Part shown: positions 23,087 to 46,229 of the stretch, piece after piece
Numbering within the stretch: the stretch's first letter is position 1
Layout of the letters: the number at the start of each line of letters is the position of its first letter
DNA from: Calditrichota bacterium
Lineage (GTDB): Bacteria > Zhuqueibacterota > Zhuqueibacteria > Zhuqueibacterales > Geothermadaptataceae
Assembly: GCA_008501765.1 (NCBI GenBank)
Contig: QQUE01000002.1
Location: forward strand, 1,176,336-1,240,335
Direction of reading: 5' to 3'
DNA length: 64,000 nt
Program-made: the position numbers and the translations under genes
The notes under the pieces: generated by a model
What the model saw: only the letters and a program-made list of their open reading frames with translations
The model's database searches: none
What the model was told of the DNA's origin: nothing

Positions 23087-23539
23087 TTTAGGGTTTCTCA
23101 TTGTATTCCTGCATTCTTAAATGTAGGAAAAAATAACAGAAATTTCTATAAACAAGAAATAATTTTAATTCCGATGAAAACGAAGCGACCAATTTCTGAG
23201 TAAATAAAATACCATTAAATTTTTCAGCTTGGTCTAATGATTGCAAAGCTTGCAAAATTGTTTTTATCGAGAGTCTTTTTATTTGTCTTTTTTATAAAAA
23301 AAACTGTATTCTCTGCTTGGAAAATAATTTTGGTAAATATACTTTAAGAGTTTAACTTTTGTTTACTGAATCATTCTAAAACCGATTCTTTTGATACATT
23401 TAGTTTCCCAAAATCGTTCGTTGTAAAACACACCACTGGTTCCATTTAAAAGTTTTGTATCGGGTCTACCTTTTAGGGTTTTTATGATAATTGGATGCCA
23501 GCGAATCAAAAAATTAAAAGTACCACACATGAGGCAAAC

Positions 23540-25429
23540 ATGGACAAAGTAGATACTTTGGCGAAAAATGCACCTGATCAAACGGGTGAAAAAAAGAAAG
23601 TTATAATAAAAGAGCACATTATCGAAATCGTTAGCGATGCCGGTGAAGGCGCTCAAAAAGCAGGTCAGTCCTTTGGCGGCATTTCAGCAAAAGCTGGAAA
23701 TGGAATCTGGACGGTGGAAATTATCCCTGCCGAGATTCAGCCACCCCCTCGTAGCAAAGCAGGTGGCAGCGGCAACCGTATTCGTGTTGGCTCATTTTAT
23801 ATTACCAATGCTGGAGATGAAGCCGATCTCGTCGTCGCGTTTAACGAGCAATCATTGCTTGGCCGTTTTGAATCCGGCAATCTAAAACCGGATGCGATTG
23901 TTTTATTGGAAGATAAATGGCGCAACCACGCGGATCCCGATATTAAAAAAATGTACCGTGATGCAATCGATGATCTGAAAAAGACCCCTTTGCGCATTTA
24001 TGAAGTGCCGATGGAAAAAGAGTGTTTAAAAATTGTGCAAAACGCACAACGCGGAAAAAATATGTGGGCTCTGGGAATGCTTTGCAGCGTTTATTCCCGT
24101 GACCTTGAATCGGCGAGAAATGAAATTAGGCTCACATTTGCGAAAAAAGGCGAGAAAGTCATCAAACCGAATATCGATCTCCTCGAATCGGGTTTCCAAT
24201 GGGCCGAAGAAAACCTCGATTTTAAATTTGAAATCCCTTCTGCCGGAATAACCAAACCGCAAATTGTGATAAATGGGAACACGGCCATCGCTTTGGGTGT
24301 GGTTGCTTCCGGCATGGACGTTTGTGCGATGTATCCAATTACACCCGCCACTTCGGCATCCCACTTTTTAAGTGAAATTTTCGAAAATGTCGGTGGTGTG
24401 GTGCATCAGGCAGAAGATGAAATTGCGGCCGCCGCATTTGCAGTGGGCGCGTCTTACGCTGGAAAATGCGCTGTAACGATTACTTCCGGCCCGGGTTTGG
24501 CGTTGAAAACTGAAGTTCTCGGTTTGGCCTCGATGGCGGAAATTCCACTGGTCCTCGTTGATGTTCAGCGCGGCGGACCGAGCACGGGATTGCCGACAAA
24601 AGTGGAACAGGGTGACTTGCTGATGTCCCTGTTTCACACACACGGTGACGCACCGAAAATTGTTATGGCTCCGGCAACTATTGAAGATTGTTTTTACGCC
24701 CCGGTCACCGCGCGCAAAATTGCGGAAACCTTTCGCATGCCGGTCTATATCTTGTCGGATGCGAATTTGGCTACCGGACAGCAACCATTTGCTAAACCGG
24801 AATTTAAAGAAGAATGGGTGGCGCCGCCGTTTGACCAATCTCCAGTTCCCGATGGCAAACAGCCGTATGACTGGGATGAAGAAACCGGCCTTTCAACACG
24901 CATAATTCCTGGCCAGCCAGGCGGAATGCACACCGTAACCGGATTGGCCCATTCACGGCAAAGTAAAGTCGCTTACGAACCGTGGACGAACCAGGAGGGG
25001 ATGGAGAACCGCAGTAAAAAATTAGCCGCGTTTCAGAAAACCTTGCAAACTCCCAAAGTAAACGGTGATGACAAAGGCGATATTTTAATCGTGGGCTGGG
25101 GCAGCACAAAAGGTGTGATCGAAGAAGCTGTCAATATAGCTCGCGATCAGGGTTATTCCGTATCCTCGTTACACATCAAATATTTGCAACCGATGGCTTC
25201 CGGCATTAAAGAGATAATGCAGCGCTTTAAAAAAGTGATCACAGTTGAAATCAACTATTCCGATAGCTATAAAGATAAAATCTTCGATGAAAATAACCGC
25301 CGATACGCAAATCTTGCGTTGCTCTTAAGGGCGCGTTATCTCGTCGATGTCGATTGTTGGTCCAATGTTTATGGTCAGCCAATTAAACCACATTCCATTT
25401 TGGATTTGATCAAAGAGCGTTCCGAGTAA
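23540..25429 (+). CDS. korA: 2-oxoacid:ferredoxin oxidoreductase, fused gamma-alpha subunit (KorA type)
   Basis: With KorB it oxidises a 2-oxoacid with CoA to acyl-CoA, CO2 and reduced ferredoxin. I place the start at 23540 (GAGGCAAAC before ATG), giving 629 residues; an in-frame ATG at 23495 has no ribosome site. The gamma domain (about 22-205) carries DAGEGAQKAGQSFGGI, the usual G-rich turn. The alpha/pyrimidine-binding domain (about 225-420) has YPITPATSASHF, HQAEDEIAAAAFAVGASYAG, TSGPG and RGGPSTGLPTK. A transketolase-C-like domain (about 500-600) ends the protein. This gamma-alpha fusion is typical of 2-oxoglutarate and related oxidoreductases; the substrate (2-oxoglutarate or a branched-chain oxoacid) cannot be fixed. 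First gene of a six-gene operon. Confidence 0.92.
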   Translation: MDKVDTLAKNAPDQTGEKKKVIIKEHIIEIVSDAGEGAQKAGQSFGGISAKAGNGIWTVEIIPAEIQPPPRSKAGGSGNRIRVGSFYITNAGDEADLVVAFNEQSLLGRFESGNLKPDAIVLLEDKWRNHADPDIKKMYRDAIDDLKKTPLRIYEVPMEKECLKIVQNAQRGKNMWALGMLCSVYSRDLESARNEIRLTFAKKGEKVIKPNIDLLESGFQWAEENLDFKFEIPSAGITKPQIVINGNTAIALGVVASGMDVCAMYPITPATSASHFLSEIFENVGGVVHQAEDEIAAAAFAVGASYAGKCAVTITSGPGLALKTEVLGLASMAEIPLVLVDVQRGGPSTGLPTKVEQGDLLMSLFHTHGDAPKIVMAPATIEDCFYAPVTARKIAETFRMPVYILSDANLATGQQPFAKPEFKEEWVAPPFDQSPVPDGKQPYDWDEETGLSTRIIPGQPGGMHTVTGLAHSRQSKVAYEPWTNQEGMENRSKKLAAFQKTLQTPKVNGDDKGDILIVGWGSTKGVIEEAVNIARDQGYSVSSLHIKYLQPMASGIKEIMQRFKKVITVEINYSDSYKDKIFDENNRRYANLALLLRARYLVDVDCWSNVYGQPIKPHSILDLIKERSE

Positions 25430-25482
25430 TGAGTTGGGCTTGGTTTCTAGATAAAACGAAGAAAAAATTTAAGAGGTGAGCC

Positions 25483-26463
25483 ATGTTTGGCATAAATCAA
25501 AATTGTGAAATTGCATTACCCGATACTTATTATACTTTGGAAGATTACCAAAGTAATATTCCGCGCTGGTGTCCCGGATGCGGCGACAATTCAATTCTTA
25601 CTGCCGTGCAACGGCTTTGCCGGGATGAGCAACTTGCTCCGGAAAAAACCGTTTTTGTTTCCGGTATTGGATGCTCGAGCCGGCTTCCCCACTACATGGG
25701 CACATACGGATTTCATGGCCTGCACGGCCGGGCTTTGCCGATAGCAGAGGGCGTGAAAATTCGTCGCCCGGACTTGAATGTCTTTGTAAATATGGGTGAT
25801 GGCGACTGCTGCAGTATTGGCACCGCCCACTGGATTCACGCTGTACGCTACAATATGAATATGACCGTAATGCTCCATGACAATGAAATTTATGGACTTA
25901 CTAAAATGCAGGCTTCCCCAACCTCACCACAGGGTTTGGTGACGAACACAACACCAAAGGGATCCTATCTCAAACCCATCAAACCTTTGAGCGTGACGCT
26001 GGGAATTAGCAATGTTTCATTTGTTGCTCAAGTTGCTGAATGGATGCCGGAGCTGATGTTTGAAATCATTAAAAAAGCCTATTATCACAAAGGTTTTTCA
26101 TTCATACGAATTGTGCAGCGATGTCCCCATTTTACACCCCATGTTTTTGACGATCTCATGAATCCGGATTCAGCTTTACTGCTGCAGCACGAAGATGGAT
26201 TGAGCTCGAGCGAAACAATGCTAAAAACTTATAAGGAACAGGAAATCCACGATCCATCCAATATTGATCGTGCCCGTGAACTTGCTGATATAGATGATGT
26301 TTTACCTGTTGGAATCCTCTATCGCAATGAAAACATCGAAGTCTATGATGAGACGAGAAGACGGCAACGATTCGTGACCCACAAAATGCGCAAAGATGCC
26401 CTCGAAACCCAATTTGACAAATTTTTAATCGAGCCGGTAAGCGGAGGTAACGGCCATGCCTGA
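25483..26463 (+). CDS. korB: 2-oxoacid:ferredoxin oxidoreductase, beta subunit (KorB type)
   Basis: TPP- and 4Fe-4S-binding subunit, 326 residues. Cluster ligands are visible as Cys30 and Cys33 (RWCPGCGD), Cys64 (GIGCSS) and Cys214 (IVQRCPHF). The TPP/Mg motif is NMGDGDCCSIG followed by HDNEIYGLTKMQ. GTYGFHGLHGRALPIAEG is the conserved loop of the Kor/Oor group. AAGAGGTGAG lies before the start, 53 bases after korA. The last 8 bases overlap the next gene, so the third protein is probably made in proportion to the enzyme. Confidence 0.94.
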   Translation: MFGINQNCEIALPDTYYTLEDYQSNIPRWCPGCGDNSILTAVQRLCRDEQLAPEKTVFVSGIGCSSRLPHYMGTYGFHGLHGRALPIAEGVKIRRPDLNVFVNMGDGDCCSIGTAHWIHAVRYNMNMTVMLHDNEIYGLTKMQASPTSPQGLVTNTTPKGSYLKPIKPLSVTLGISNVSFVAQVAEWMPELMFEIIKKAYYHKGFSFIRIVQRCPHFTPHVFDDLMNPDSALLLQHEDGLSSSETMLKTYKEQEIHDPSNIDRARELADIDDVLPVGILYRNENIEVYDETRRRQRFVTHKMRKDALETQFDKFLIEPVSGGNGHA

Positions 26464-28816
26464 TCCTGCAGTTGATCGCCAGGTTGATCAGGTGAGCAGC
26501 AATGGAGCGCTTGATCAATCAAAGAAGATTGACGTTCAGCAAGTTCTGCGGCAATTTTTCCTCTCCGGCCGCAAAAAAGATGTGCAAGTCGAAATACAAT
26601 CGCTCTCCGGATTGAATTCGATTTATAAAACCCGATTGCTCGGCGTTAATAAAATGCGTACAGATTTTCCGATAATTATGCCGGAAAAAAAATCCTTGCA
26701 CGTCGTGCCATTGCATCAATTTATTGATGACATAAATAGTGAATTGTCCGGCGATGATGAAGAAACAGCCGAACTCAAACACTATTTACTTCTCATCGAA
26801 GGTGCCATTCGCGAAAAATATTTTAAAAAATCGGCTGACCTGAAAGACGGGTGGAAAAAAGCAGTGAAATCCGTGGTTTCAGCATCGCGTACGGAAAAAA
26901 GCAAAAAGGAAAATTTACAGAAATCACTCACTTCTCTGTTCAAGAAATATGGCTTTTCTGGAGAATTGGTTGGCTTTCACCCGGAGGTTATTCAGCGCAT
27001 TTTCTCCCGCATTTATGCAAAACAAACAGCAAAACGAGCAGGCGATTTCCTGCAAAACACCAAAGATTTGCTGCAGAATATCACCGATATTTTGACCTCG
27101 GAATTTGAGAAATCGGATGCGGCAAAAACACCGGGACAACTGCGCAGCCGCCTTGCGGATGATGAGTTTAAGCTGGATACTTTTTCTGGCATGATGGCCC
27201 ACATCGGTGATCTTAGTTTATCGGAGAAACGAATCGCACGACTGGAACTGGTGAAAGAAAAATTGACGCAGTTGGTCACCACCATTGAAAGTGGCGAGAT
27301 GGCTGTTTCAATTGAATTGCAAACTGGTTTAAAGCACTATGAAGCCGAATTAAGAAAATTTATCGCTTATTTCCGCGCCCGCCAAATTGCACAACTCGAA
27401 ATTAAAAATAGCTACAAGCCGGAAAAACACGATCCTTTTTTTGAAAAGTTCGATCTGGTAAACATCCCGGTGCACGAACAAGTTTTTATTTCGCCTGCCA
27501 TAATTTACCTAAAACAGGATAAACTGGATGCAGAATGCCTTGCTGAAATTGCCCGCCTGGCGGAAGCGGATGCACCGGTTAAAATAATTATCGAGATCGA
27601 AAAGCCGCTTGAACCCGGGAAATCATCGTACGAACTAATGCAAATTTCCAGTAGCGCCAACCGCCTTTTGCGAACTTTGTTGGGTGAAAATCGTGCGTTT
27701 GTTTCCCAGATTTCCATTTCTGATCTCAAGGGAATGAAAAATGGATTCAAAAAAGGTCTACAGCATAACGGGCCTGCTATCTGGGGTGTCTTTGTCGGTG
27801 AGAAGAAAAATTCCGTCGACAGATATGTTGAGGTGATGAGTGCAACGCACGGGCGCGTCAGTCCGGTTTTTACTGCGGATCCGGCAAAAGGCAGTTGGGC
27901 ACATAAATTTTGCCTGAAGCACAACGAGAATTTTGAACAAAAGTGGACACAATCTGCTACCTCTTTTAGAAATGAAAATGAGGAAGTCAGCGAAGTCACC
28001 GGGTTATATACTGTCTTCGATTATTTGTCAGACCAACCTGAATTTGACTCCCATTGCATCGCTGTTGAATTATCAAAACTGACAGATTCGTTTGTCCCGA
28101 TGGATACATTTATTTCGGAAAAATGCAGTGCTGATAGCATTCCCTATGTGGTAAAATACGATAAATATGGGCATGAATTTGCCGTTGTCATCTCCCAGTT
28201 TTTAATAAATGTCGGACAAAAATTGACTCAAAATTGGCAGGCTTTGCAAGAACTGGCCGGCATCAATAATTCCCATGTATTGGCGCAAATGAGCATCGAG
28301 CAGGAAAAACTCGAAAAAGCTTTGCAGCAAAAAGAAGCTGATCTCGAACAGGCCTATCAGGCCAAACTGGATTCCGCGCTCGGCTCCCTCGCTGATGAAA
28401 TTGTCGGCAATATTGCCGCGGGTCTGCTCGGACAGGCCGCCTCGCCAGTTTCAACACCAGCACCGGCGGCTCCCGCCACCGCCCCATCAGAAACGCCCTC
28501 CGCGGAAAGTGCAAAAATTGCTGAACCCGAAACCACGGAAGAGGCCGAGGAAGACGATGCAATGTCGTTTGATGAGGCTTATATTGATACGCCGCTATGC
28601 ACGAGTTGCAACGAATGTGTGCAGCGCAACTCGATGATTTTTGCATACGACGGCAACAAGCAGGCAATCATTAAAGATGCCGCTGCCGGCCCATTTCGTG
28701 ATATTGTTGAGGCGGCCGAGAAGTGCCCGGTGAAAATAATTCATCCCGGAAAGCCTTTGCATCCCGATGAAGATGGTCTCGAAGATTTGATAAAACGTGC
28801 GGATGTGTTCAATTAA
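26456..28816 (+). CDS. Large accessory protein of the oxoacid oxidoreductase operon with C-terminal ferredoxin domain
   Basis: A 786-residue soluble protein. Residues 1-300 are mostly charged helices that I do not recognise. About 330-620 is an alpha/beta region ending in a module (about 521-604: FDYLSDQPEFD..., then IPYVVKYDKYGHEF and QNWQALQELAG) that reappears near the end of the 1459-residue protein two genes downstream. A helical, then Pro/Ala/Glu-rich linker (about 610-705) leads to a one-cluster ferredoxin domain with Cys715-x2-Cys718-x2-Cys721 and Cys757-Pro. A good site (GGAGGT) lies inside the korB end, which this gene overlaps by 8 bases. I infer an electron-transfer or assembly partner of KorAB. 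No function is established that I know of. Confidence 0.75.
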   Translation: MPDPAVDRQVDQVSSNGALDQSKKIDVQQVLRQFFLSGRKKDVQVEIQSLSGLNSIYKTRLLGVNKMRTDFPIIMPEKKSLHVVPLHQFIDDINSELSGDDEETAELKHYLLLIEGAIREKYFKKSADLKDGWKKAVKSVVSASRTEKSKKENLQKSLTSLFKKYGFSGELVGFHPEVIQRIFSRIYAKQTAKRAGDFLQNTKDLLQNITDILTSEFEKSDAAKTPGQLRSRLADDEFKLDTFSGMMAHIGDLSLSEKRIARLELVKEKLTQLVTTIESGEMAVSIELQTGLKHYEAELRKFIAYFRARQIAQLEIKNSYKPEKHDPFFEKFDLVNIPVHEQVFISPAIIYLKQDKLDAECLAEIARLAEADAPVKIIIEIEKPLEPGKSSYELMQISSSANRLLRTLLGENRAFVSQISISDLKGMKNGFKKGLQHNGPAIWGVFVGEKKNSVDRYVEVMSATHGRVSPVFTADPAKGSWAHKFCLKHNENFEQKWTQSATSFRNENEEVSEVTGLYTVFDYLSDQPEFDSHCIAVELSKLTDSFVPMDTFISEKCSADSIPYVVKYDKYGHEFAVVISQFLINVGQKLTQNWQALQELAGINNSHVLAQMSIEQEKLEKALQQKEADLEQAYQAKLDSALGSLADEIVGNIAAGLLGQAASPVSTPAPAAPATAPSETPSAESAKIAEPETTEEAEEDDAMSFDEAYIDTPLCTSCNECVQRNSMIFAYDGNKQAIIKDAAAGPFRDIVEAAEKCPVKIIHPGKPLHPDEDGLEDLIKRADVFN

Positions 28817-28904
28817 TATTTGAATCATATGTTCGAAGTGCAGGTACGATTTGGTCTCTGTATTCGTGCCTGATTTTAAATGTAAAAATTAGAATCAGAA
28901 TATT

Positions 28905-29747
28905 ATGGAATTTTTAACATCGGTAGGTTTTTTAACCGGATTGAGTATCGTTCTCGCGCTTTTGCTGGTTTTTGCCAACCGAAAATTGAGCGTGTACGAA
29001 GATCCCCGCATTGCCCAGGTGCAGGATATGCTGCCCGGTGCGAACTGCGGCGCGTGTGGCGTACCCGGTTGCGCAGCCTTCTCCGAAGAATTGGTCGCCG
29101 GCAAAGCGCTGCCGAGCGGGTGCTCGGTTGGCGGCCCGGAAACAGCCGAAGCCATCGCCAGTTTTTTAGGGATTGACGCCGGTTCTGCCGAGCGTAAAAT
29201 TGCCCGCCTTCTTTGTGCCGGTGGCTGCGATGTTGCCGGTGATATCGTCGATTACGCAGGATTTTCCTCCTGCCGTGCCGCGGCAACAGTTGCCGGCGGC
29301 AGCAAAGCGTGTACATGGGGTTGTCTCGGCCTCGCCGATTGCGAAGTCGCCTGCGATTTTGACGCCATTCACATGGGTTCCACCGGCCTGCCGGTCGTCG
29401 ACGCGGATAAATGCACGGCGTGCGGTGACTGCGTTGATATTTGCCCGAAAAATCTTTTCGAACTGCACTCCGAAAACCAGAAATTGCTGGTGCAGTGCAA
29501 ATCATTACTTGCCGGCGATGATGCGACAGATTTGTGCCAGGTAGCCTGTACGGGTTGTGGCATTTGTGCCGCCGATGCTCCGGCAGGTTTAATCGAAATG
29601 AAAAATAATTTGGCTATTGTCGATAAAAATAATTTTTTTGATCAAACAGAGATAGCTACTCTGCGCTGCCCCACCGGGGCCATTATATGGCTGGACGGTC
29701 AGCAATTCCCCAAAGAACAACGCTCCGCCAAATTGCAAAAAATTTGA
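28905..29747 (+). CDS. rnfB: RnfB-like iron-sulfur protein
   Basis: Electron-carrying subunit resembling RnfB of the Rnf ferredoxin:NAD oxidoreductase. 280 residues: one N-terminal membrane helix (about 5-24), the four-cysteine cluster motif Cys48, Cys51, Cys56, Cys73 (NCGACGVPGC...SGC), then CTWGCLGLADCEVAC and CTACGDCVDICP forming a two-cluster ferredoxin domain. The last ferredoxin-like domain keeps CTGCGIC and a distant RCPTGAI, while the fourth Cys of its first motif is Ala and most of the second motif is missing, so it can hold only one cluster. It lies 88 bases after the accessory protein gene. The membrane subunits RnfA, D, E and G are not in the window. Confidence 0.88.
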   Translation: MEFLTSVGFLTGLSIVLALLLVFANRKLSVYEDPRIAQVQDMLPGANCGACGVPGCAAFSEELVAGKALPSGCSVGGPETAEAIASFLGIDAGSAERKIARLLCAGGCDVAGDIVDYAGFSSCRAAATVAGGSKACTWGCLGLADCEVACDFDAIHMGSTGLPVVDADKCTACGDCVDICPKNLFELHSENQKLLVQCKSLLAGDDATDLCQVACTGCGICAADAPAGLIEMKNNLAIVDKNNFFDQTEIATLRCPTGAIIWLDGQQFPKEQRSAKLQKI

Positions 29748-29758
29748 GAGAATTTTCT

Positions 29759-32700
29759 ATGCTTTTCAAGAAAAATGATAAATCCAAATCGCAGAAGGCG
29801 CCTTTTCCCGGGAAGCCTGCGATAGCAAGCGGAAATACTACAGTTTTTGACCTCGAATCCAGGTATTGCGATACCATTGCAATCACAGCATCAGAACTGC
29901 AATCAGGTCGAAATTCCCAAAGTGCTGCCCGGTGCCAGATTGAACGATTTCAAAAAGAGAGTGCGGCTGTAAGTTATGTCGGAGGTGCAACTGCAATGGG
30001 ATTGCGCACAGCGGTCCTTTTAAACACAAAAAATTCGGCTCAATTAATCGACGGCATCACCGATGCGGTGGGAAAACATCTGCCGATTTTGTATCACTCA
30101 ATTTTGCATGAGATTGGTTATTTACATCAAATTTTAGACAGCGGGGCGCTGGTTTTATTTGCCAATGATGTGCAATCGCTGGCCGATCTTTCCTTAATTG
30201 GGCGCGCGGCTGCTGAGCGTGCACTGCTGCCCTGCGTCATTTTGAATGATGTACATTTGTCCCGCAACACACAAAATTATTTACATCCGGAAGAAGAATT
30301 AATACGGCAATTTCTTGGTGTTTCGTCAGATTATATTTCGCCAGCTACACCGGCGCAGGAAATGATTTTCGGCAAAAAACGCCAGCGCGTTCCACGCTAC
30401 TGCAACCTTGACCAACCAATGGCCGTTTTGCAAAATTTGAACCCTGCTTATGCTGCTCAAAATTCAGCAGCAGACCTCGTTTTCTCCGAACAACACAGTG
30501 AAGGTATTTTGCGCCAAAGCATGATCGATTTTGCTCAACTCACCGGCCGCGACTATTCAAAACCCCAGATGCATGCGTCGAAAAACGCCCGGCATTTCGT
30601 TGTCGCACAGGGATCGGTTTACCGCGAAATGTGTCCGGTTGTCGATTATCTTGAATCGGACCAAAAAATTAAGTGTGGTGTGCTGCATCTTTACAGTTTT
30701 ACACCGGCTGCCCTGCAGGATGTCGCTCAAAAACTCAGCGACTGCCGGAGCGTAACCGTCATCGAAAAATCGCAGAAATTCACTGGCAATCCGGGGCCAC
30801 TGTCGCGAATGCTGCAGCAGGCGCTTCCGGAAATTCACGGAAAAACTTCAGAAATTTTCACAGCGCTTGATGCGGGAGCAGAACGGAAACCATCTTTTGC
30901 TGAACTTGCAGCTGTTGTCGGCAATATGACTGCGGCAGCGACGCCGAGGAAAAAATATGTCATCGGGGCCCATTTTTCCCAGCCGGGCTTGCGATTGCCG
31001 AAGCTTGAAATGCTGCAGCAAAATGTGGAGAAAAATTATCCCGGAGCATCTGAGCATGTTTTAAGCGCTGACAAAATCACGCACAATTTGGTCGCAGGGG
31101 AGCAGATTTTACTTTTGCATAATACCGACTTTGATGACAAACTTGTCGCGCTCTTTTGCGCTGCTTTTTCTGCGGAGAATGGCGGGGCATTTGAAGCCGG
31201 GTATAGCTATCACAACGATGAAAAAGCGCTGATTTTTACGCGTACTTTACCTGAAAATAAGCCGTTCACCGGCCGCAAAGTTGTGGTCGCGGAAAGTACC
31301 ATCCAACTTGAAACAGCACTCCCGCAATTTAATTTGGCACAAGGCGGCAGCTTGCTTTTGCTGCAATCTGATAAAGAAATTCAAGCGTCAGAAAAATTAG
31401 CAGAATATTTACAACAGAATGCGATAACTATTTATACAATTCGGGAAAAAACACAGGCGCGTGCGCTGGCAATTTTAGGTGCGATCGCTCGATTTTTCCC
31501 GTTTGCCGATAAAAAGCAGAATAGTAAACTTAAAAAACAGTTTCTCTCGGCAATGAAAAAATCTGAGTTTAAATCACTCAGCGACGATTTTATATTTGGA
31601 TATGAATCTGTTAAATCCGTTAAAATTAGAAAAAACAAAGTTGAATCGATAAGCAAAGTCGATGAAATCGATGCGCCGTGGACGGTGAAATCTCTGCAAA
31701 AAATGGACGGCAGTCTCTTTGATCTGGAGAAATTCTGGAGCCGCATCGGCTACCAGCAGGCGGACGGTGATTGGGATAAAATTAGCGCCGATCCCTTCTC
31801 GGCAATGAAAACGATGCCCGCGGGCAGCAGTGCTTTTGCGAGCACAGCCACGGAAATAAAACAAATCGTGCAGTTTATTCCGGAAAATTTACCAGGCAAT
31901 GATTTAGGATTTTTGCACGCATTTGATGCCGGTGTTTGGGGTACGGTTCAAGAGCTTGGCGCGATTCTCGATACCGCGATTAATCTCAGACAAAGTTCAG
32001 GATTCACATTTTCGCAGCTCCCGCGCATGCGCGATAATTTGGCAAAATTGGCCTACAACGCTTTCCAGAAAGAGTTGGTCGAAAATTTCTGTTTTGCCGG
32101 AGATTTATTTGATGGCGCTTTCGCAAAACTTATCGATAAAATGCAGCCAAAAGAAGATCAAAAGCAGCAGATGCAGGCAGAATTTGATGCGGCCATTTCA
32201 CTTTGCCGTGAATTACTTTTGCTGAAAAATGAGCACTTTTTTGATGCCGCCCAAGCCAAAGAAAAAGGCAGCGGCAGGGCTGTCGTTTTGACGATCAATC
32301 CCGGTGAATATCGGGATGCAACGCATTTGTTATCATTGCTACCAAATTTGGCCGCCGAGGAAGTGAACGCCACGCCGGAAATCATCGCCAAATCGCAACA
32401 AAACTGGCTGTTTAGCCAGGCCCTGCCCGTGGTCGAACTCGATGATTTGCATTGCGAGTTGAATCCGTGGCACAGTGTGCTGAATAAGAATATTCGAGCG
32501 GCAGTTTTGCCTTTTTCCGGCCTGCCCTCCGGCGATGGTGTGCAGACAGCTTTGCGCATCGTTACCGTCGCAATAGAAAAATCGATGCAAAAGCGATCAT
32601 TGCAACTCAAAGAAAAAATTGCCGGCCTGCAGAAAAAGGTTGAAGAAAAAATCCAGGGGGATTTGAGTAGCGCCAGTCAAATTAACGATTTTGAAGCGTA

Positions 32701-34138
32701 CGGGCATCGATTAAATGAGCTGCTCGAAAGCGATGATAAAAAAATAAATGCCGCCAATCTCGCAGCCACCCGCCTCAACGCTGAACCCAGCGCAGAAAAA
32801 ATTCAGGAACTGGTAGCGGCCCGGGAAGCGCTTGTTGTCTTGAATCAGGCCTATGCAACTGGTGTCAGCGGTAGTGGACGCGCCAACGCTATTTTGGCAA
32901 TCGATGCGCAAATTGAAGTCGCCAAATTTCCTTATAACACCATTAAATCTCCGTGGTTGCAAGTGACCACAGCAGGTTCAACCGCAAGCCTGCAGGGATT
33001 GTTCGCTGGAATGACGAAACAAATGAGTGATACTTTTCTTGCTTTACGCAACGCTGAAAATCTGCTCGAAAAAGGACGCCAACTAACCACGAATTCACTG
33101 CAATGGGCTGATTTTACCGAAGAAGAAAAATCGTTTTGTCCCCCGGTTGTGAGCGTATTCCCGGATATCGGGTGCGGCAGCGAAATGAATGATATTTTAG
33201 GCCTGACCGCGTCCGCAAAGCCTTTTAAAATCGTTCTTTTAAATTCACAACCTGAAACCAACAACGCCTCATTTCTGCATCCAGTATTGGCAACTTTGAA
33301 TGCGAGCTTCCAAAATAATACAGCAGTTGTGCAGGGTGATATTGCCGATTCAGCATATCTTCTTGAAAAAACCAATACGAATTTCGAATTTGCCGGCCCG
33401 GCACTCATACAGATTTCTGCCCCTAAAAAGTTGGCAGGCAGCCACGCGATTGCCTTGGCGGAATTGGCGCGTCAATCGCGCTTCTCTCCTGCTTTTTCCT
33501 CGATTCCGGGCGACAGCGACCAAATCCTGCCCGGCCTGGATATTTCGGCCAATCCGGACTTCGATCAAATGTGGGTGACGAAAAACTGGATCCAAATAAA
33601 TAAAGAAGGATTGCGCAAAGCACTGACTGAAAAACTGACACCAGCGCACTTCCTCTCTCAATGGCCGCAATTTAAGCCTGAATTTGACGAAATAGCCGCC
33701 GCTTCTCTTAACGAGAATCACGTTCTGTTAACCGAATTTCTTGAACTTGAAACTGCTGACAGAACGGGCCGAATTCCCTATTTTCGGATGCTCGACTCCA
33801 ACAATGCGCTGCATTATTTCATGGTATCGGAGAATATGGTTCGGGTGTGCGAGCAGGCGAAACAATTGTGGCAGCTCTTGCAAAAACTCTCCCAACCTGT
33901 GCCCGATAAAACAGTTTCCAGTGATGCCAAGAATGTGACGGATTCATTTACCGGCGTTGAAAAACAGGAGCTGGAGAAGAGAATCGCTGAGCTCGAGCAA
34001 AACAGCGATCGCGTTATGCAGGAAAAGTTAAAAGGACAATTGTTGAATTTGAGCGGTTTTGCTGCCGGTAGTGATAATTTTCAGGAGACCCTGCGCACAT
34101 TTTTAGCAGGAATCAGCGAGACAAAAGATCAGGAATGA
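29759..34138 (+). CDS. PFOR-like giant protein lacking cofactor motifs (probable pseudoenzyme)
   Basis: 1459 residues from the ATG at 29759; a longer frame from 29687 would run into rnfB and lacks a ribosome site. By eye the layout follows single-chain pyruvate:ferredoxin oxidoreductase: a pyrimidine-domain-like part (about 60-200), a domain-II-like part with LTGRDYSKPQMHA, HFVVAQGSVYREM and VTVIEKSQKFTGNPGPL (about 255-350), a gamma-like domain (about 400-600), and a pre-ferredoxin segment reading IPENLPGND near 705, where PFORs have PENCIQCN. The two-cluster ferredoxin domain is absent. A TPP-domain-like part (about 1130-1290) keeps only DIGCGSE and has no GDGW-type motif. The tail (about 1298-1385) is shared with the 786-residue protein. 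It is probably a scaffold or regulator of KorAB. Confidence 0.7.
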   Translation: MLFKKNDKSKSQKAPFPGKPAIASGNTTVFDLESRYCDTIAITASELQSGRNSQSAARCQIERFQKESAAVSYVGGATAMGLRTAVLLNTKNSAQLIDGITDAVGKHLPILYHSILHEIGYLHQILDSGALVLFANDVQSLADLSLIGRAAAERALLPCVILNDVHLSRNTQNYLHPEEELIRQFLGVSSDYISPATPAQEMIFGKKRQRVPRYCNLDQPMAVLQNLNPAYAAQNSAADLVFSEQHSEGILRQSMIDFAQLTGRDYSKPQMHASKNARHFVVAQGSVYREMCPVVDYLESDQKIKCGVLHLYSFTPAALQDVAQKLSDCRSVTVIEKSQKFTGNPGPLSRMLQQALPEIHGKTSEIFTALDAGAERKPSFAELAAVVGNMTAAATPRKKYVIGAHFSQPGLRLPKLEMLQQNVEKNYPGASEHVLSADKITHNLVAGEQILLLHNTDFDDKLVALFCAAFSAENGGAFEAGYSYHNDEKALIFTRTLPENKPFTGRKVVVAESTIQLETALPQFNLAQGGSLLLLQSDKEIQASEKLAEYLQQNAITIYTIREKTQARALAILGAIARFFPFADKKQNSKLKKQFLSAMKKSEFKSLSDDFIFGYESVKSVKIRKNKVESISKVDEIDAPWTVKSLQKMDGSLFDLEKFWSRIGYQQADGDWDKISADPFSAMKTMPAGSSAFASTATEIKQIVQFIPENLPGNDLGFLHAFDAGVWGTVQELGAILDTAINLRQSSGFTFSQLPRMRDNLAKLAYNAFQKELVENFCFAGDLFDGAFAKLIDKMQPKEDQKQQMQAEFDAAISLCRELLLLKNEHFFDAAQAKEKGSGRAVVLTINPGEYRDATHLLSLLPNLAAEEVNATPEIIAKSQQNWLFSQALPVVELDDLHCELNPWHSVLNKNIRAAVLPFSGLPSGDGVQTALRIVTVAIEKSMQKRSLQLKEKIAGLQKKVEEKIQGDLSSASQINDFEAYGHRLNELLESDDKKINAANLAATRLNAEPSAEKIQELVAAREALVVLNQAYATGVSGSGRANAILAIDAQIEVAKFPYNTIKSPWLQVTTAGSTASLQGLFAGMTKQMSDTFLALRNAENLLEKGRQLTTNSLQWADFTEEEKSFCPPVVSVFPDIGCGSEMNDILGLTASAKPFKIVLLNSQPETNNASFLHPVLATLNASFQNNTAVVQGDIADSAYLLEKTNTNFEFAGPALIQISAPKKLAGSHAIALAELARQSRFSPAFSSIPGDSDQILPGLDISANPDFDQMWVTKNWIQINKEGLRKALTEKLTPAHFLSQWPQFKPEFDEIAAASLNENHVLLTEFLELETADRTGRIPYFRMLDSNNALHYFMVSENMVRVCEQAKQLWQLLQKLSQPVPDKTVSSDAKNVTDSFTGVEKQELEKRIAELEQNSDRVMQEKLKGQLLNLSGFAAGSDNFQETLRTFLAGISETKDQE

Positions 34139-34187
34139 GAAATACTAAATTCTCAGGTTTAGAAGAAATGGGATGACGGAACAATAA

Positions 34188-35540
34188 ATGTTTAATTTTT
34201 TGAGTCACGGCAATAAAACCTTCGACCGCGGTGTGCACCCGGGTGATTTTAAAGAACAGACGCGTACCCTGCCCATCGAACGCATGCCACTGGTGGATGA
34301 ATATATTTTACCGCTGAGCCAACATCTTGGCGGGCCTTCCAAAGCGGTCGTTAGCGTTGGAGAAAAAGTAATTCGCGGCCAATTGATCGCCGAACCGGCT
34401 GGCTTTGTATCGGCGGCGTTGCACGCCTCCGTCACCGGGACTGTTATCGCCATCGAACCGAGGCCACATCCATCCGGGCGGTTTGTCGAATCAATCGTGA
34501 TTAAAAGAGATCCTTATTCAGCGCAGCGGCTGTTTGATGAGCATGCCACAGATTGGAAAAAAATGGAACCCGCTGAATTGTTGCGCGCCATTCAACAGGG
34601 TGGATTTGTCGGTCTCGGCGGTGCTGCTTTTCCGACTCACGTTAAATTGAGCGTGCCACCGGGCAAAAAAGTTGATTTTTTTATGATAAATGCGGCGGAG
34701 TGTGAGCCCTATTTGACCAGTGATCACCGTGTTATGCTCGAACAGCCCGAGGCTATTTTTCTCGGCATTCGCATCTGCATGAAAATTCTCGGAGCAAAAC
34801 GGGCTTATCTCGGTGCGGAAATCAACAAGCTGGATGCGCTGGCGCAACTGCAAAGCCAAATTCCTGCCGATTTGCCCTGTGAGATTGTGCCCCTGGAAAC
34901 GAAGTATCCACAGGGTGCTGAAAAAATGCTCACCGAGGCAGTTTTGAAAAGAGAAATCCCCAGCGGCAAATTACCGATCGATATTCAGGTTGTGGTCAAC
35001 AATGTCGGTACTGTGGCAGCGATCGGCGATTTATTCCGCTATAATCAGCCGGTTATTGAACGCGTCGTGACGATGACAGGCCCTGGCATTCAAAATCCAC
35101 GCAACTTGCTCATTCCAATCGGCACAAAACTGACGGAAGTCATCGAATTTTGTGGTGGCATGAAAGAAGATGTGCGGCAAATATTGTTCGGCGGTCCGAT
35201 GATGGGCAATGCGGTGCGCTCCACCGACGTTCCAATCACCAAAGGCACCTCCGGCGTGGTTTTTTTCACCGAAGACGAGATGGTTTCGACGAAAGAATAC
35301 CCCTGCATTCGCTGCATGCGCTGCGTCGACGCCTGCCCGGTTTATCTAAACCCAACCCAACTTGGCGCACTCGCCCGCGCCGGCCATTATGATGATATGA
35401 TGGATTTAAATATCATGGATTGCATGGAATGCGGTTCCTGCTCTTATGCCTGCCCCTCCAATATTCCACTGGTACAAAGTTTTCGTGTCGGTAAAGCGCT
35501 GTTGCGCGAAAAGATGGCGCGGGAACGCGCGGAAGGGTAA
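34188..35540 (+). CDS. rnfC: RnfC-like NADH-binding iron-sulfur protein
   Basis: 450 residues. The N-terminal barrel/SLBB-like and flavin/NADH fold carries GVHPGDFKEQT, GLGGAAFPTHVKL (about 145) and NAAECEPYLTSDHR. Two 4Fe-4S motifs follow: CIRCMRCVDACPVY (about 373) and CMECGSCSYACPSN (about 412). In Rnf complexes this subunit docks NAD(H) and passes electrons to RnfB. Here it is the last gene of the kor operon, 49 bases after the PFOR-like gene, and no rnfD, G, E or A follows. It may therefore serve a soluble NADH/ferredoxin-coupled oxoacid oxidoreductase, or the rest of the complex is elsewhere. The last 90 bases of the gene are duplicated beyond the fic gene. Confidence 0.92.
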   Translation: MFNFLSHGNKTFDRGVHPGDFKEQTRTLPIERMPLVDEYILPLSQHLGGPSKAVVSVGEKVIRGQLIAEPAGFVSAALHASVTGTVIAIEPRPHPSGRFVESIVIKRDPYSAQRLFDEHATDWKKMEPAELLRAIQQGGFVGLGGAAFPTHVKLSVPPGKKVDFFMINAAECEPYLTSDHRVMLEQPEAIFLGIRICMKILGAKRAYLGAEINKLDALAQLQSQIPADLPCEIVPLETKYPQGAEKMLTEAVLKREIPSGKLPIDIQVVVNNVGTVAAIGDLFRYNQPVIERVVTMTGPGIQNPRNLLIPIGTKLTEVIEFCGGMKEDVRQILFGGPMMGNAVRSTDVPITKGTSGVVFFTEDEMVSTKEYPCIRCMRCVDACPVYLNPTQLGALARAGHYDDMMDLNIMDCMECGSCSYACPSNIPLVQSFRVGKALLREKMARERAEG

Positions 35541-35550
35541 TTATTAGAAT

Positions 35551-36693
35551 TTAATCATTTAGAGGAAGGAAATTTTTCTTTCCCAGAATTTCGATAATAC
35601 TTCGCAATAGATAATTATTGTCGAATCGGATAAGATATTTTCTCGCACTATTCTCTGCAGGTGAAATCATTTTCTTTGCTTTAAGTCGTCCAAGTGACCG
35701 GGATCTTTCTGTGTGCGCCTTCCCCGGAAAAATATATGCAATATCAGCTGACATAAATATTTGCTTTTTTATTGCTACCTTCAATATTTTTTCTTCTTGC
35801 TCGGTAATGGTTTCTTTCTTCTTTGCCAAAGAGACAGCAGGTGAGAGAATATTGTCGTGTAGAAAATTGTAATCTAAGAGTTTGTCTATTTTCTCGATCT
35901 CATTTTTTAATCCCGAGAGCACATATTCACTCCAAGATAAAAGTCCATTTTTCGTGCCTGAATCAGCAAGGGCAAGTGCAGCATAATATTGATTACGATC
36001 ATTGCAAAAAATTGCCGTTGGGTTGAGAATGCGTCCGAGATTTACAGTAAAACCTTGTTTCACAAGCATAGCATAGGTCAGCAATCGAACTGTCCTGCCA
36101 TTTCCGTTGTCGAAAGGATGAATCCAGGAAAAACGGTGGTGAGCAATTGCTGTTTTTAAAAGATCATATTTTTCTGAGTGTTTTGTATTAATAAAATCAT
36201 AAAGCTCATTCATATAATCCTGCACTTGTGCTGGATCTGGTGGTTTATGCATCGAACCAGTAATTTTTAAGTTTGTCTGCCTGTATTCACCCGGATGTTT
36301 GCTCCCTTCGCGGACTAAATTCTTTACGACTCTCTTGTGCAATTCACTTATAAATGCTCTGTTTACCAAATTTTCTGAAATATTTTCATCAATGAATTGT
36401 ATCGCTTGTTCTGCATTCAAAATCTCCCGAATATTTTCATTTTTTATTCCGGATTGATCGAATTTGGTTTCAATATATTCTGCGATTGTGGTATGATTTC
36501 CTTCAATTCGGGCTGATCCAATACTTTCAAGCATCTGGAAAATATGCTTTAATTGAAAAAATATTTGGGGATGGGTAGTTCCAGTAAGGTGTTTTTTTCT
36601 CAGATGATCCAGATCAATAATTAAATCTGTTAAATTTGATCCAAAATCAGGGTCCAGAAGCTTTAAATCAAAATGTTTAAATGTAGCATTCAT
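35551..36693 (-). CDS. Fic family protein (probable adenylyltransferase with N-terminal inhibitory helix)
   Basis: 380 residues, predicted to transfer AMP to a hydroxyl side chain of a target protein. The inhibitory motif (S/T)xxxE(G/N) is present before the Fic fold as Ser60-Ala-Arg-Ile-Glu64-Gly65. The catalytic motif HPFDNGNGRTVR starts at His192, complete with the Arg that pairs with the inhibitory Glu. A flap region GEYRQTNLKITG (about 135-146) and a C-terminal winged-helix-like part (about 290-375) follow. The gene is AT-rich compared with its neighbours, oriented opposite to the rnf operon, and framed by a repeat of the rnfC 3' end. I infer horizontal arrival. The start has no clear ribosome site. 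Without a visible antitoxin partner it is more likely a self-inhibited Fic than a toxin-antitoxin pair. Confidence 0.9.
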   Translation of the reverse strand: MNATFKHFDLKLLDPDFGSNLTDLIIDLDHLRKKHLTGTTHPQIFFQLKHIFQMLESIGSARIEGNHTTIAEYIETKFDQSGIKNENIREILNAEQAIQFIDENISENLVNRAFISELHKRVVKNLVREGSKHPGEYRQTNLKITGSMHKPPDPAQVQDYMNELYDFINTKHSEKYDLLKTAIAHHRFSWIHPFDNGNGRTVRLLTYAMLVKQGFTVNLGRILNPTAIFCNDRNQYYAALALADSGTKNGLLSWSEYVLSGLKNEIEKIDKLLDYNFLHDNILSPAVSLAKKKETITEQEEKILKVAIKKQIFMSADIAYIFPGKAHTERSRSLGRLKAKKMISPAENSARKYLIRFDNNYLLRSIIEILGKKNFLPLND

Positions 36694-36874
36694 AGTTTTA
36701 ATATGTAATAGTTTATGTTGCTAACTTATTTAATTTTAAATAGTTTTTACGATAGATATTTTAAACATTATGTAGCAAAAGCACAAGTGAAAAAGTAGCA
36801 TCCAGCTCTTACTAATAAATATTTAAGGGGCAGATTTTTTTAAGATTGCCCCCCGCATGTACTGTGTTGGCAAC

Positions 36875-36963
36875 TGCCCTCCAATATTCCCCTGGTACAA
36901 AGTTTTCGTGTCGGCAAAGCGCTGTTGCGTGAAAAGATGGCGCGGGAACGCGCGGAAAGATAG
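36875..36963 (+). pseudogene. Duplicated 3' end of rnfC (remnant)
   Basis: This 89-base stretch repeats the end of rnfC (35451-35540) including the stop codon. The changes are mostly silent third-position ones (CCA/CCC, GGT/GGC, CGC/CGT), plus one missing base at the left end and a changed last codon and stop (TAA to TAG). Silent changes suggest the two copies diverged while both were coding, as when an insertion brings its own version of a target gene's end. No integrase is present. The rest of the 36694-37194 gap shows no gene. Confidence 0.85.
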
Positions 36964-39572: not shown

Positions 39573-42296
39573 TTATTTGAGCAGCAAAAATTTCTTGGTA
39601 CTGCTGAATTTGCCAGCACTTAATTTGTAAAAATAAACGCCGCTTGCCAAATCGCTGCCGTCAAAAGTGATACTGTGCAAGCCGGCGGCTCTGTTTTCGT
39701 TTATTAAAGTTTTTATTTCATGTCCAAGATTATTGAAAATATTCAGTGTGACAAAAGCGTCCTGCGGCAGATTAAATTTAATCGTCGTCACCGGATTAAA
39801 GGGATTGGGATAGTTTTGCTCCAGCCTGAATGTTCCAGCGATCTGTTCCGTTTGTGCATCGACACCGGTTGAATGCTCTTCGACAAGCTGAAAACGCACG
39901 GCATCGGTGCGGATTACCACACCCGTGGTGCTGTTGCCGGTGTCTTTTATCCAAAGCTCAATTTCTTTATTTGCCGGAAGGGCCGAAGTACCAATCGTTA
40001 CCCAATCACCACTGCCATTATTTTGATTTACATGAAAGGACCCGTGCAGCTCACTGTCGAATATTATTTCATACAGAGCGTCATCGGTGGAGTTTACGGT
40101 ACTGGGCACAATTTGCAGAATGTCGTAGGTGCCGCTTTTCTTCAGGGTTGTGTAAAATCGAGCTGAAGCAAGAGGGGTTTCGTTCAGATGGGCGTAGCGG
40201 CTGGTTGGGCCGTAAATAGTGGCCACACTGGTTCTCCAATCGCCAAATTCCTCATAATTCTCGCGGTCTTCATTATCGATCGTACAAAAATAGAGCTTCA
40301 CATCTGCTGATACCCTCAATGTTATTAGCGAGTCGACCGGGTCATCAGAATAAATTTCTAAAAGATCTGTTTGCATCCCCATTTCCTGAGAAATAAAGGT
40401 CAGTGGCAGGGCGATACTGGACATCGGCGGGATGGTAAATGGCACGGGGAAGTCTATGAAAATTAAATCTTTAAAAGTACGGAGTTCGGAAATCTGTAAT
40501 TCATCTATACCGGTATTTGATATTTCCAGCACATAGTGTAGCGAATCCTCGACACTCACTGCGCCCAATTCGATCACACTTTTTTTGATCTCGATATCCC
40601 GGCCACGGACAAGCGGCGTGATTTTGAGCACATCCGCGACAAGTTGTTTGCCTGCCTGATTTTTGCCGGCAGCAGACATTTCCACGTTGATTTCGCTTCC
40701 GGATTCGGCATCCACGGTCGAAAGAAAAATCCATTTTTTTGCTGGCAAAACCTCCGATGTAATTATTGTATCCAAAGGCATGTGATTATTGGAAATTAGG
40801 AACCGCAGTTCATTTGCCCGGTTGGATACGTCCGGAAATTGTATAAAAACATTATAATACCTTGATTGTGGAACCGGGTAATTCCACGAAACCTGCGCCG
40901 AATCATTGGCTGCTAAAGTAATTATTCGCGAATCCGTGCCCCAGGAATAAGTCGAAGAATTGTTCCAGTCGCCCTGCAATTCCGCGTACCCCGCATCCAC
41001 ATTATCGATAAAAACATCGTCGGGCAGGTAGGAGATAAATTTCATTGCCTGATTTCCCATTGTATCGCAGACAGTTACTCCCGCTTTGGCTAATGTCTTT
41101 AACGGAACAGAATTCCGGGTTTGCCATTGATTCGCACCTGTTTGCTCGCATTCGAGCACTAAATATTGTTCGTATATATTTTTGATGGCGACAAAGGGTT
41201 GCTGTTGAAAAATGGTTTCGTCGGATTCAATATTAAAGTAGACCGCATCCCCCAAAACAGCATCTGAAAACTGCACTTCGGGGGCTGCAAAATCTTCGTT
41301 ATTTCGCCACAATTGCATCGCCTCGATGGCAGTGCAATACTGGAATTTCACCTCAGGATAAAGTGCTGCTTTAGCATGCGCCAGGCTGTCGATCATCTGC
41401 ATATTTTCCGGAAAATCAGCTTCCGGAAGGTGAGCCCAAAAGCAGGCGACCTGATCGGTTCCCTGCTCTGCTGCGGCAAAAATGGATTCCATTATTCCGG
41501 GAATACGCGCCGCCCTTTGGAATGAAACCGAGCGCAGTTGCCAACCCGGGCCATCACCGGGAATCTGGTAGTTTTCCGTGGATGGATGGTAGGGGATAAA
41601 AGTTGATGGTGCCTCTGACCAGTCGAAAAGATTATTGATGGGTTCTAAATCTTCTGTGCGTTTCCCCGGATAATCGTTATGCATACTGTATGGCAGCACC
41701 CGTTCATCGAGGTAACGCTGCCAGTCGTTATCCATATAATGCCAGCCGCTGCGAAAGGAAACCGGAAACACCTTTTCTTCGAGAAGAAACTGGGCCAGGG
41801 TAACTTTAAAATCATCCAAAGATTCCAAAAAAGACTTGGCCTGATTCCAATAATAAGTGCCATCCTGATCGTAGTCTGACCACAAAAATGTGTGATAGTG
41901 CAAGGAAAGTTCATCCCCGGTGGCCAGGACATTTTCACCGTGATATTTTTTCATTAAATACAAAGTCATGATATTGGGAACCGGGACATTGGTATTCGTG
42001 GCATAGCGAAAAATATTACCTGCCATCATCCACCAGGTCATTTTCATTGGCTGCCCGAAGGAATCAAGTAAATCCGCCCGAAAAGCCGGATCCATCACAG
42101 TGTAGGCATTTCGCAATGGATCTGTGTAAAGCGATTGGTCGTAGGTATTGTTGTATTGGGCAACGTCCATCCGGGACCAGATGGCGGTGTCCGATCCGAT
42201 GACGAGATAGACTTTTCCGCCTGAAAAGACATTGCGCGAAAAACTAAAGAGCAGAACGGATAATAAAAATAATCTGAATAAGGTATGTTTGTGCAA
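39573..42296 (-). CDS. Secreted multidomain protein with polysaccharide-deacetylase-like and golvesin-like domains and a type-IX-type tail
   Basis: 907 residues, starting at a TTG codon with AAAGG upstream. A signal peptide (about 1-25) is followed by a region (about 60-330) with the pattern of NodB-like/polysaccharide-deacetylase barrels: a His pair in LSLHYHTFLWSDYDQDG, FRSGWHYMDND, and FWAHLPEADFPENMQ. The assignment is tentative. Two beta domains resembling golvesin carbohydrate-surface modules follow (about 430-550 and 650-780), separated by a choice-of-anchor-like Ig segment (about 560-640). The last about 85 residues are the FlgD-like sorting tail (LEQNYPNPFNPVTTIKF ... KKFLLLK). I infer an extracellular, surface-attached enzyme acting on a polysaccharide. 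The downstream gene's tail is nearly the same. Confidence 0.7.
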   Translation of the reverse strand: MHKHTLFRLFLLSVLLFSFSRNVFSGGKVYLVIGSDTAIWSRMDVAQYNNTYDQSLYTDPLRNAYTVMDPAFRADLLDSFGQPMKMTWWMMAGNIFRYATNTNVPVPNIMTLYLMKKYHGENVLATGDELSLHYHTFLWSDYDQDGTYYWNQAKSFLESLDDFKVTLAQFLLEEKVFPVSFRSGWHYMDNDWQRYLDERVLPYSMHNDYPGKRTEDLEPINNLFDWSEAPSTFIPYHPSTENYQIPGDGPGWQLRSVSFQRAARIPGIMESIFAAAEQGTDQVACFWAHLPEADFPENMQMIDSLAHAKAALYPEVKFQYCTAIEAMQLWRNNEDFAAPEVQFSDAVLGDAVYFNIESDETIFQQQPFVAIKNIYEQYLVLECEQTGANQWQTRNSVPLKTLAKAGVTVCDTMGNQAMKFISYLPDDVFIDNVDAGYAELQGDWNNSSTYSWGTDSRIITLAANDSAQVSWNYPVPQSRYYNVFIQFPDVSNRANELRFLISNNHMPLDTIITSEVLPAKKWIFLSTVDAESGSEINVEMSAAGKNQAGKQLVADVLKITPLVRGRDIEIKKSVIELGAVSVEDSLHYVLEISNTGIDELQISELRTFKDLIFIDFPVPFTIPPMSSIALPLTFISQEMGMQTDLLEIYSDDPVDSLITLRVSADVKLYFCTIDNEDRENYEEFGDWRTSVATIYGPTSRYAHLNETPLASARFYTTLKKSGTYDILQIVPSTVNSTDDALYEIIFDSELHGSFHVNQNNGSGDWVTIGTSALPANKEIELWIKDTGNSTTGVVIRTDAVRFQLVEEHSTGVDAQTEQIAGTFRLEQNYPNPFNPVTTIKFNLPQDAFVTLNIFNNLGHEIKTLINENRAAGLHSITFDGSDLASGVYFYKLSAGKFSSTKKFLLLK

Positions 42297-45958: not shown

Positions 45959-46229
45959 TTTCCCACCAAACAGAAAAATTTCCACTCAAAAATAGTCATT
46001 TTTTCTTTTGCCCGCAGGCAATGTTGTCATTGTTTAATCAGGCATTGAGCGCGGTGAACCACAAGGATTAATTTCGCTATCATGCAAAAATATTCATCGA
46101 ATTAGAACTTGGAAATGGGTTCTAATAAGGATAAATTAGCTTATATTTTTATTAAAAAAAGCTGCAGGAGCAGGAAAAAAACCCAATTGATAAGTTTAAA
46201 TTTAACCAGAGAATTACGTGGGAACAGCG

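Follow-up and report, generated by a model that had tools for sequence, protein, structure and literature searches.

A korA-korB-X-rnfB-G-rnfC operon from a Calditrichota bacterium as a candidate input arm of an oxoacid-driven Rnf complex

A 2-oxoacid oxidoreductase encoded together with RnfB, RnfC and two very large proteins, at a site without the Rnf membrane genes, raises the question of where its electrons go. Such a gene set lies at positions 23495-35540 of the 64,000-nucleotide stretch of contig QQUE01000002.1 analysed here (the window; Calditrichota bacterium, assembly GCA_008501765.1, genome G000). In the textbook view, Rnf is a pump fed by soluble ferredoxin. On balance, the operon probably encodes a cytoplasmic input arm for an oxoacid-driven Rnf complex, made of KorAB, the large proteins X and G, RnfB and RnfC, which would dock on the membrane core encoded on contig 17 of the same genome. 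X and G have the features of inactive paralogues of a long pyruvate:ferredoxin oxidoreductase (PFOR), and the gene order recurs in several phyla.

The operon and its relatives

The operon comprises six intact open reading frames (ORFs), all on the + strand, in the order korA-korB-X-rnfB-G-rnfC, assigned to families with Pfam and NCBIfam. The korA gene (23495..25429) encodes a gamma-alpha fused 2-oxoacid oxidoreductase subunit of 644 residues, or 629 from an alternative ATG at 23540 (TIGR03710, 4e-158; POR_N, 2e-47; POR, 1e-19), and korB (25483..26463) encodes the 326-residue thiamine pyrophosphate (TPP)/[4Fe-4S] beta subunit (PorB_KorB; TIGR02177, 6e-72; TPP_enzyme_C, 2e-25). X (26456..28816; 786 residues) combines an apparently dead PFOR beta domain with a C-terminal ferredoxin tail for a single [4Fe-4S] cluster; the tail gives its one notable family match (Fer4_13). 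The Kor-type rnfB (28905..29747; PRK07118.1-3, 3e-71; FeS domain) and rnfC (34188..35540; TIGR01945, 9e-160; Complex1_51K, 2e-45; RnfC_N; SLBB) encode 280 and 450 residues, and their products are here named RnfB2 and RnfC2. Between them lies G (29687..34138; distinct from rnfG), a putatively dead full-length PFOR paralogue of 1483 residues with weak matches to POR_N and PFOR_II; an alternative start at 29759, an ATG past the rnfB stop, gives 1459 residues. The intergenic spacings are, in order, 53, -8, 88, -61 (+11 with the alternative G start) and 49 bp, bearing out the six genes, order and tight, overlapping arrangement given in a preliminary description of this DNA. Scans of the operon for promoters and terminators gave as many matches as shuffled sequence and were uninformative; the operon assignment therefore rests on spacing and conserved gene order.

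The same order, whole or up to contig ends, recurs in the genus (G001, G002), the family (G004, G006) and another class (G065), and in Latescibacterota, Rhodothermota and Gammaproteobacteria. It is not due to chance, and its occurrence in other phyla rules out an operon restricted to Calditrichota. Within the phylum, this KorA subtype (at least 72% identical) and X share one distribution: of 82 genomes, 6 have both and the others have neither, and G is in the same six. The wider survey was a KorA-alignment scan of about 85,000 species genomes that used two peptide patterns, giving a biased sample, and kept the best 80 of 119 matches; it located the subtype in many phyla. Most of the genomes compared are metagenome-assembled genomes (MAGs). 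X follows korB in 68 of the 71 loci with enough sequence. The preliminary description had proposed this check of gene order and had counted absence of the large proteins from most kor-rnf loci against its idea of a single complex; they are instead near-obligate.

In most genomes outside the window genus that have korA beside rnf genes (the Rnf type), rnfC is followed by rnfD-rnfG-rnfE-rnfA, as judged from RnfD matches and flanking genes. The resulting ten-gene operon, korA-korB-X-rnfB-G-rnfC-rnfD-rnfG-rnfE-rnfA, is found in G084 (Calditrichales), G082 (the S139_29 MAG), G085 (Gammaproteobacteria) and the Chromatiales G087, G089 and G091, although the contig of G089 ends at rnfG. G094 carries it with inserted genes, G090 probably carries it across a contig break, and L164, L168, L169 and L170 are further gammaproteobacterial cases. 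None of rnfA, rnfD, rnfE and rnfG lies in the window operon, which, because its relatives continue into these genes, appears to be the ten-gene "oxoacid-Rnf" operon minus its membrane half. The preliminary description was thus right about the missing membrane genes for this operon, but not for its relatives. On a Latescibacterota chromosome, rnfC seems to be split (L085 20977-21645, L152 5493-6911): the N-terminal part follows G and the C-terminal part lies far away with rnfD-G-E-A, through rearrangement or misassembly.

X and G as relatives of a long PFOR

The reference for both large proteins is encoded on contig 17, in an rnfB-PFOR1646-rnfC-rnfD-rnfG-rnfE-rnfA operon that is the only Rnf operon of the genome with a membrane core. 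Its 1646-residue PFOR, PFOR1646, has all PFOR domains and a C-terminal ferredoxin; this long form exceeds the classical enzyme (NifJ) by about 450 residues and the ferredoxin. PFOR1646 and its orthologues retain Thr31, Glu64, Arg114, the GDG motif and Asn996 (D. africanus numbering), together with all cluster cysteines tested.

G aligns with PFOR1646 almost end to end (24% identity, E=3e-94, BLASTP) and preserves the colinear PFOR domain order from the N-terminal domain to the beta domain. The full TPP and substrate set (YPITP, catalytic Glu, Arg, GDG and Asn) is present in G of no lineage, and this residue check rules out G as an active second PFOR. Outside the window genus, every G retains all eight cysteines of two ferredoxin-type clusters.

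X matches the beta domain and the tail, aligning with residues 1169-1646 of PFOR1646 (24% identity over 519 columns, E=2e-35, BLASTP), with the ferredoxin tails as the most similar part; X and G also match each other in sequence. All 69 of the X proteins compared retain the four tail cysteines; their TPP residues show no conservation, and the TPP-binding residues and proximal [4Fe-4S] cysteines of a PFOR beta subunit are missing. An AlphaFold2 model of X (predicted local distance difference test score of 86) was compared with known structures in Foldseek. It has a beta-subunit fold, matching the beta chains of PFOR and of 2-oxoacid:ferredoxin oxidoreductase (OFOR) with a probability of 1.00, albeit partially and with low template modelling (TM) scores, and it also matches D. 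africanus ferredoxin I (TM-score of 0.84 by target length, 1.2 Å). In G004, G065 and L071, X has 1414-1470 residues and its N-terminal half is PFOR-like as well, so the 786-residue X looks like a shortened second PFOR paralogue.

Relative to PFOR, the window proteins have thus lost the TPP, substrate and proximal-cluster residues, and both are, as judged from these residues, catalytically dead paralogues. Their homology to PFOR1646 rules out novel, unrelated proteins and accounts for what the preliminary description had left as unexplained giant accessory proteins. G and X diverge quickly: identity between species is 51% for G and 56% for X, and ranges from 83 to 88% for KorA, KorB, RnfB and RnfC (RnfB 83%, RnfC 87%, KorA 88%). 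Both paralogues are under purifying selection, with nonsynonymous versus synonymous divergence (pN versus pS) of 0.33 versus 0.76 (saturated) for G and 0.27 versus 0.73 for X.

Operons with an active long PFOR are found elsewhere. In G084, a complete PFOR-Rnf operon lies about 4 kb after the Kor-Rnf operon (L147/L148). Five gammaproteobacterial loci (L161, L162, L166, L167, L171) hold complete rnfB-PFOR-rnfC-D-G-E-A operons, with a PFOR of about 1650 residues and intact catalytic motifs; these likely encode a pyruvate-fed Rnf and are possibly of greater importance than the window operon. In the order of G087, 61 of the 296 genomes sampled match X or the PFOR tail. Stand-alone long PFORs of about 1580-1620 residues, with catalytic residues and without the ferredoxin tail (G019 C64, G028 C196; L060, L062), are encoded in genomes of another family of the class, away from rnf genes.

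KorAB, its substrate and its partners

KorA retains the YPITP and QRGGPSTG motifs, and KorB retains its cysteine ligands, GDGD and YGLTK, in alignments with the S. tokodaii OFOR and Magnetococcus 2-oxoglutarate:ferredoxin oxidoreductase (OGOR) structures, which cover most of the length of both subunits. These motifs place KorAB among the 2-oxoacid oxidoreductases, and KorB is, on this evidence, catalytically complete. The window KorAB subtype differs from the two reference enzymes in that X almost always follows it, and X rather than free ferredoxin is probably its electron acceptor.

The substrate clues come from the pocket and from neighbouring genes. At the position of S. tokodaii Lys49, KorB has an Arg, as in the Magnetococcus enzyme, and it retains Leu123 and Lys125. 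In the sister species G001, ptb-like and buk genes directly follow the operon. In the window, a phosphate butyryltransferase-like gene (ptb, 46218-47153, + strand) and a butyrate kinase gene (buk, 47143-48225, + strand) lie about 10 kb downstream of rnfC, past fic and other genes. A short or branched acyl-CoA as the product would be in keeping with this pair.

Other kor loci have further neighbours. The ten-gene operon at L081 3502-9706 adjoins had, oah and dch of the benzoyl-CoA pathway and an aldehyde ferredoxin oxidoreductase-like gene. L070 11922-15039 contains a fused KorB-KorA ORF of 708 residues between korA and korB, with a NuoEF-hydrogenase cluster divergently upstream, and L071 3-1868 contains lipoyl-acyltransferase (E2)-like and lipoyl synthase-like ORFs upstream of korA, assigned by eye from the sequence. 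At L101 7610-9740 and L078 1377-3285, the region just upstream of korA encodes an RnfC-like protein and then a microcompartment (BMC) shell protein.

Besides the Rnf type, one other context dominates, in which the genes of the NfnAB transhydrogenase are the neighbours. After de-duplication, the KorA set contains 17 loci of the Rnf type, 55 of the Nfn type and 7 that are neither or cut off; NCBIfam assigned the Nfn genes of two loci, and those of the other loci were recognised by their similarity to these two. In the KorA tree, the Nfn type forms one clade (SH-aLRT 99) inside a Rnf-type background, and the direction of change is tentative, since the tree was a quick one with a distant outgroup. 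Because KorAB-X also adjoins NfnAB genes in this clade, X looks like a general adaptor. In Proteobacteria, a conserved five-gene NfnA-NfnB-korA-korB-X cluster (L127 7411-15095 and about 55 similar loci) extends to isolates of Photobacterium lipolyticum, Cohaesibacter, Tropicimonas and Aliiruegeria.

The NfnAB family is known to bifurcate, and its place beside the same KorAB-X core lends something to the suggestion, made in the preliminary description, of flavin-based bifurcation or confurcation in the window operon. Such a mechanism is nevertheless extremely unlikely there: RnfB-G-RnfC stands in place of NfnAB, no NfnA, NfnB, EtfAB or HdrA-like subunit that could supply a second flavin is encoded in the operon, RnfC is a one-flavin NADH site, and Rnf couples to ion pumping instead.

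The Rnf core and the proposed electron route

RnfB2 and RnfC2 are clear Rnf members with all cofactor residues. RnfB2 is 56% identical to RnfB of the PFOR-Rnf operon and has the membrane helix (judged from sequence and conservation), the B8 domain, whose cysteines (48, 51, 56 and 73) are all invariant, and the polyferredoxin. RnfC2 has the FMN/NADH domain and two [4Fe-4S] motifs, with the FMN motif and eight cluster cysteines intact. In the RnfC tree, the window protein groups with RnfC of the Kor-type operons of Calditrichota and Rhodothermota; the Kor types overall are not one clade, and RnfC of the PFOR operons forms a separate, well-supported clade. Relatives carry rnfB through rnfC-D-G-E-A in one operon, as expected for Rnf, with an oxoacid oxidoreductase built in (KorAB and dead PFORs, or an active long PFOR). 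Because rnfA, rnfD, rnfE and rnfG are absent from the window operon, we class it as Rnf-derived rather than as a complete Rnf.

A single Rnf-type RnfD and a single Rnf-type RnfA/E pair are encoded in the assembly (98.9% complete), each of them on contig 17, alongside one Nqr set. A PF02508 search returned only one Rnf pair and one Nqr pair, which rules out a further Rnf core hidden in the genome. In the Acetobacterium woodii Rnf structure, electrons pass from RnfB through RnfA/E, RnfG and RnfD to RnfC, and no RnfB cluster comes within 30 Å of an RnfC cluster, making direct transfer unlikely (PMC11889175). RnfB and RnfC without the core should accordingly not connect, and a complex of these two alone is unlikely to work. 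Of the preliminary description's complex linking oxoacid oxidation to NAD(H), what holds is the conserved unit with its NAD(H)-reactive RnfC; a form self-sufficient with RnfB and RnfC is doubtful.

The same distance bears on a rival reading, in which a membrane-anchored complex of KorAB, X, G, RnfB and RnfC acts as an NAD-linked oxoacid oxidoreductase that pumps no ions and passes electrons to RnfC directly or through rearranged clusters, with no Rnf core. The window operon does lack rnfDGEA, its arm lacks nothing as far as the NADH site, which is intact, KorAB-X beside NfnAB requires no membrane core, and KorAB relatives linked to NAD(P) are known (phenylglyoxylate:NAD+ and 2-oxoglutarate:NADP+ oxidoreductases). 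We consider this reading unlikely. Besides the gap between RnfB and RnfC, G, the sole extra wire, has no clusters in the window genus, and RnfB2 retains the parts that dock on RnfA/E.

The gene content, homologies, catalytic losses and retentions, operon conservation and single Rnf core are observed directly; from them we infer that the proteins form a complex and share the core, as well as the path and direction of the electrons and the substrate. In the input arm that we favour, KorAB would decarboxylate a 2-oxoacid (2-oxoglutarate or a short- or branched-chain oxoacid) to the acyl-CoA, and the electrons would leave the KorB cluster for the X ferredoxin tail and then reach the polyferredoxin of RnfB. 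From RnfB they would cross the Rnf membrane core to RnfC and NAD+, with ion pumping and without free ferredoxin. X and G would be the dead remnants of a long PFOR that formerly did this job inside Rnf, and may now serve as scaffold and wire, keeping KorAB on RnfB and RnfC. The most likely docking site of the arm would be the one RnfDGEA core available, whose genes belong to the catalytic PFOR-Rnf operon, since the genome has one Rnf core and RnfB2 keeps the helix and the B8 domain that inserts between RnfA and RnfE. An exchange of input arms on the same core has a precedent in Nqr, where NqrF replaces RnfB (PMC12174285).

Several points weigh against this proposal. That two RnfB/RnfC pairs share one core is deduced only from copy number and domain retention, and RnfB2 and RnfC2 could have another role or attach to the Nqr core instead. 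G of the window genus lacks all eight ferredoxin cysteines, and in G001 it has one in-frame TAG near its end; with the clusters lost and the frame interrupted, G may be decaying there. The substrate clues conflict, the KorB pocket resembling that of the Magnetococcus 2-oxoglutarate enzyme and ptb-buk suggesting conversion of an acyl-CoA to an acyl-phosphate. The genome also encodes other oxoacid oxidoreductases (C20, C12).

The direction of flow could also be the reverse, with NADH and an ion gradient driving reductive carboxylation (for example, 2-oxoglutarate synthesis) or supplying low-potential electrons; with pyruvate, the PFOR-Rnf arm may likewise run backwards. Both Rnf and the oxoacid:ferredoxin oxidoreductases are generally reversible, and the anaerobic benzoyl-CoA pathway, whose genes adjoin the operon at L081, requires low-potential electrons. 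The ptb-buk pair of the window genus points instead to oxidative use of the acyl-CoA with ATP gain, and the reverse arm is very doubtful.

Decay could extend beyond G: KorAB might be an ordinary enzyme with X as its ferredoxin, and RnfB, G and RnfC the decaying remnant of a duplicated Rnf, kept by linkage alone. The loss of rnfDGEA and of the G clusters, the stop in G001 and the insertion of fic after rnfC would agree with this. It is quite unlikely, however, given the high identities of RnfB, RnfC and KorA between species despite near-saturated synonymous sites, the intact cofactor residues, and the stop-free 1483-codon frame of the window G, which at 51% identity is not neutral. The fic gene (35551-36693, - strand) is AT-rich and directly follows rnfC. 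Copies of an 86-bp stretch from the 3' end of rnfC flank it on both sides (35454-35539 and 36877-36962, 94% identical), making fic a probable insertion at the operon end (region 35454-36962) that seems to have duplicated or restored the end of rnfC. Further downstream, a 258-nucleotide direct repeat (74%) at 39574-39831 and 42446-42703 lies at the 3' ends of two secreted-protein genes; the second product matches a Por secretion-tail domain.

The preliminary description knew of no complex of this composition, and our search of open-access papers found no precedent: no description of an oxoacid oxidoreductase inside an rnf operon came up. A term search of a 2025 review of Rnf and Nqr gave no mention of such a variant (PMC12174285). 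In the Riftia symbiont, expression of a korAB(3) isoform drops together with that of a "PFOR-like" gene (PMC11636981), a lead to what is possibly the same system. OFOR-type cores wired to a pyridine-nucleotide flavoprotein are represented by the 2-oxoglutarate:NADP+ oxidoreductase of Azoarcus evansii, reportedly purified as KorABC with NADP+ activity, and by the phenylglyoxylate:NAD+ oxidoreductase. Their flavoprotein subunits are soluble, and to our knowledge neither enzyme includes RnfB, RnfC or a dead PFOR.

It is an evenly balanced question whether the operons represent a widespread, undescribed class of Rnf with a built-in oxoacid oxidoreductase. In such a class, the KorAB-Rnf form would have arisen from the PFOR-Rnf form when the PFOR died and KorAB was recruited; both would be ion-pumping oxoacid:NAD+ oxidoreductases with channelled electrons, two arms would share one core in the window genus, and the KorAB-X head would have moved onto NfnAB in Proteobacteria. 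The Kor/PFOR and rnf operons of Calditrichota and Gammaproteobacteria suggest complexes dedicated to drawing both NADH and an ion gradient straight from pyruvate or another oxoacid, which in reverse might serve CO2 fixation. In the dead PFORs, a large metabolic enzyme would, unusually, have been reduced to a scaffold. Some bacteria may need no free electron carrier to convert oxoacid oxidation directly into an ion gradient.

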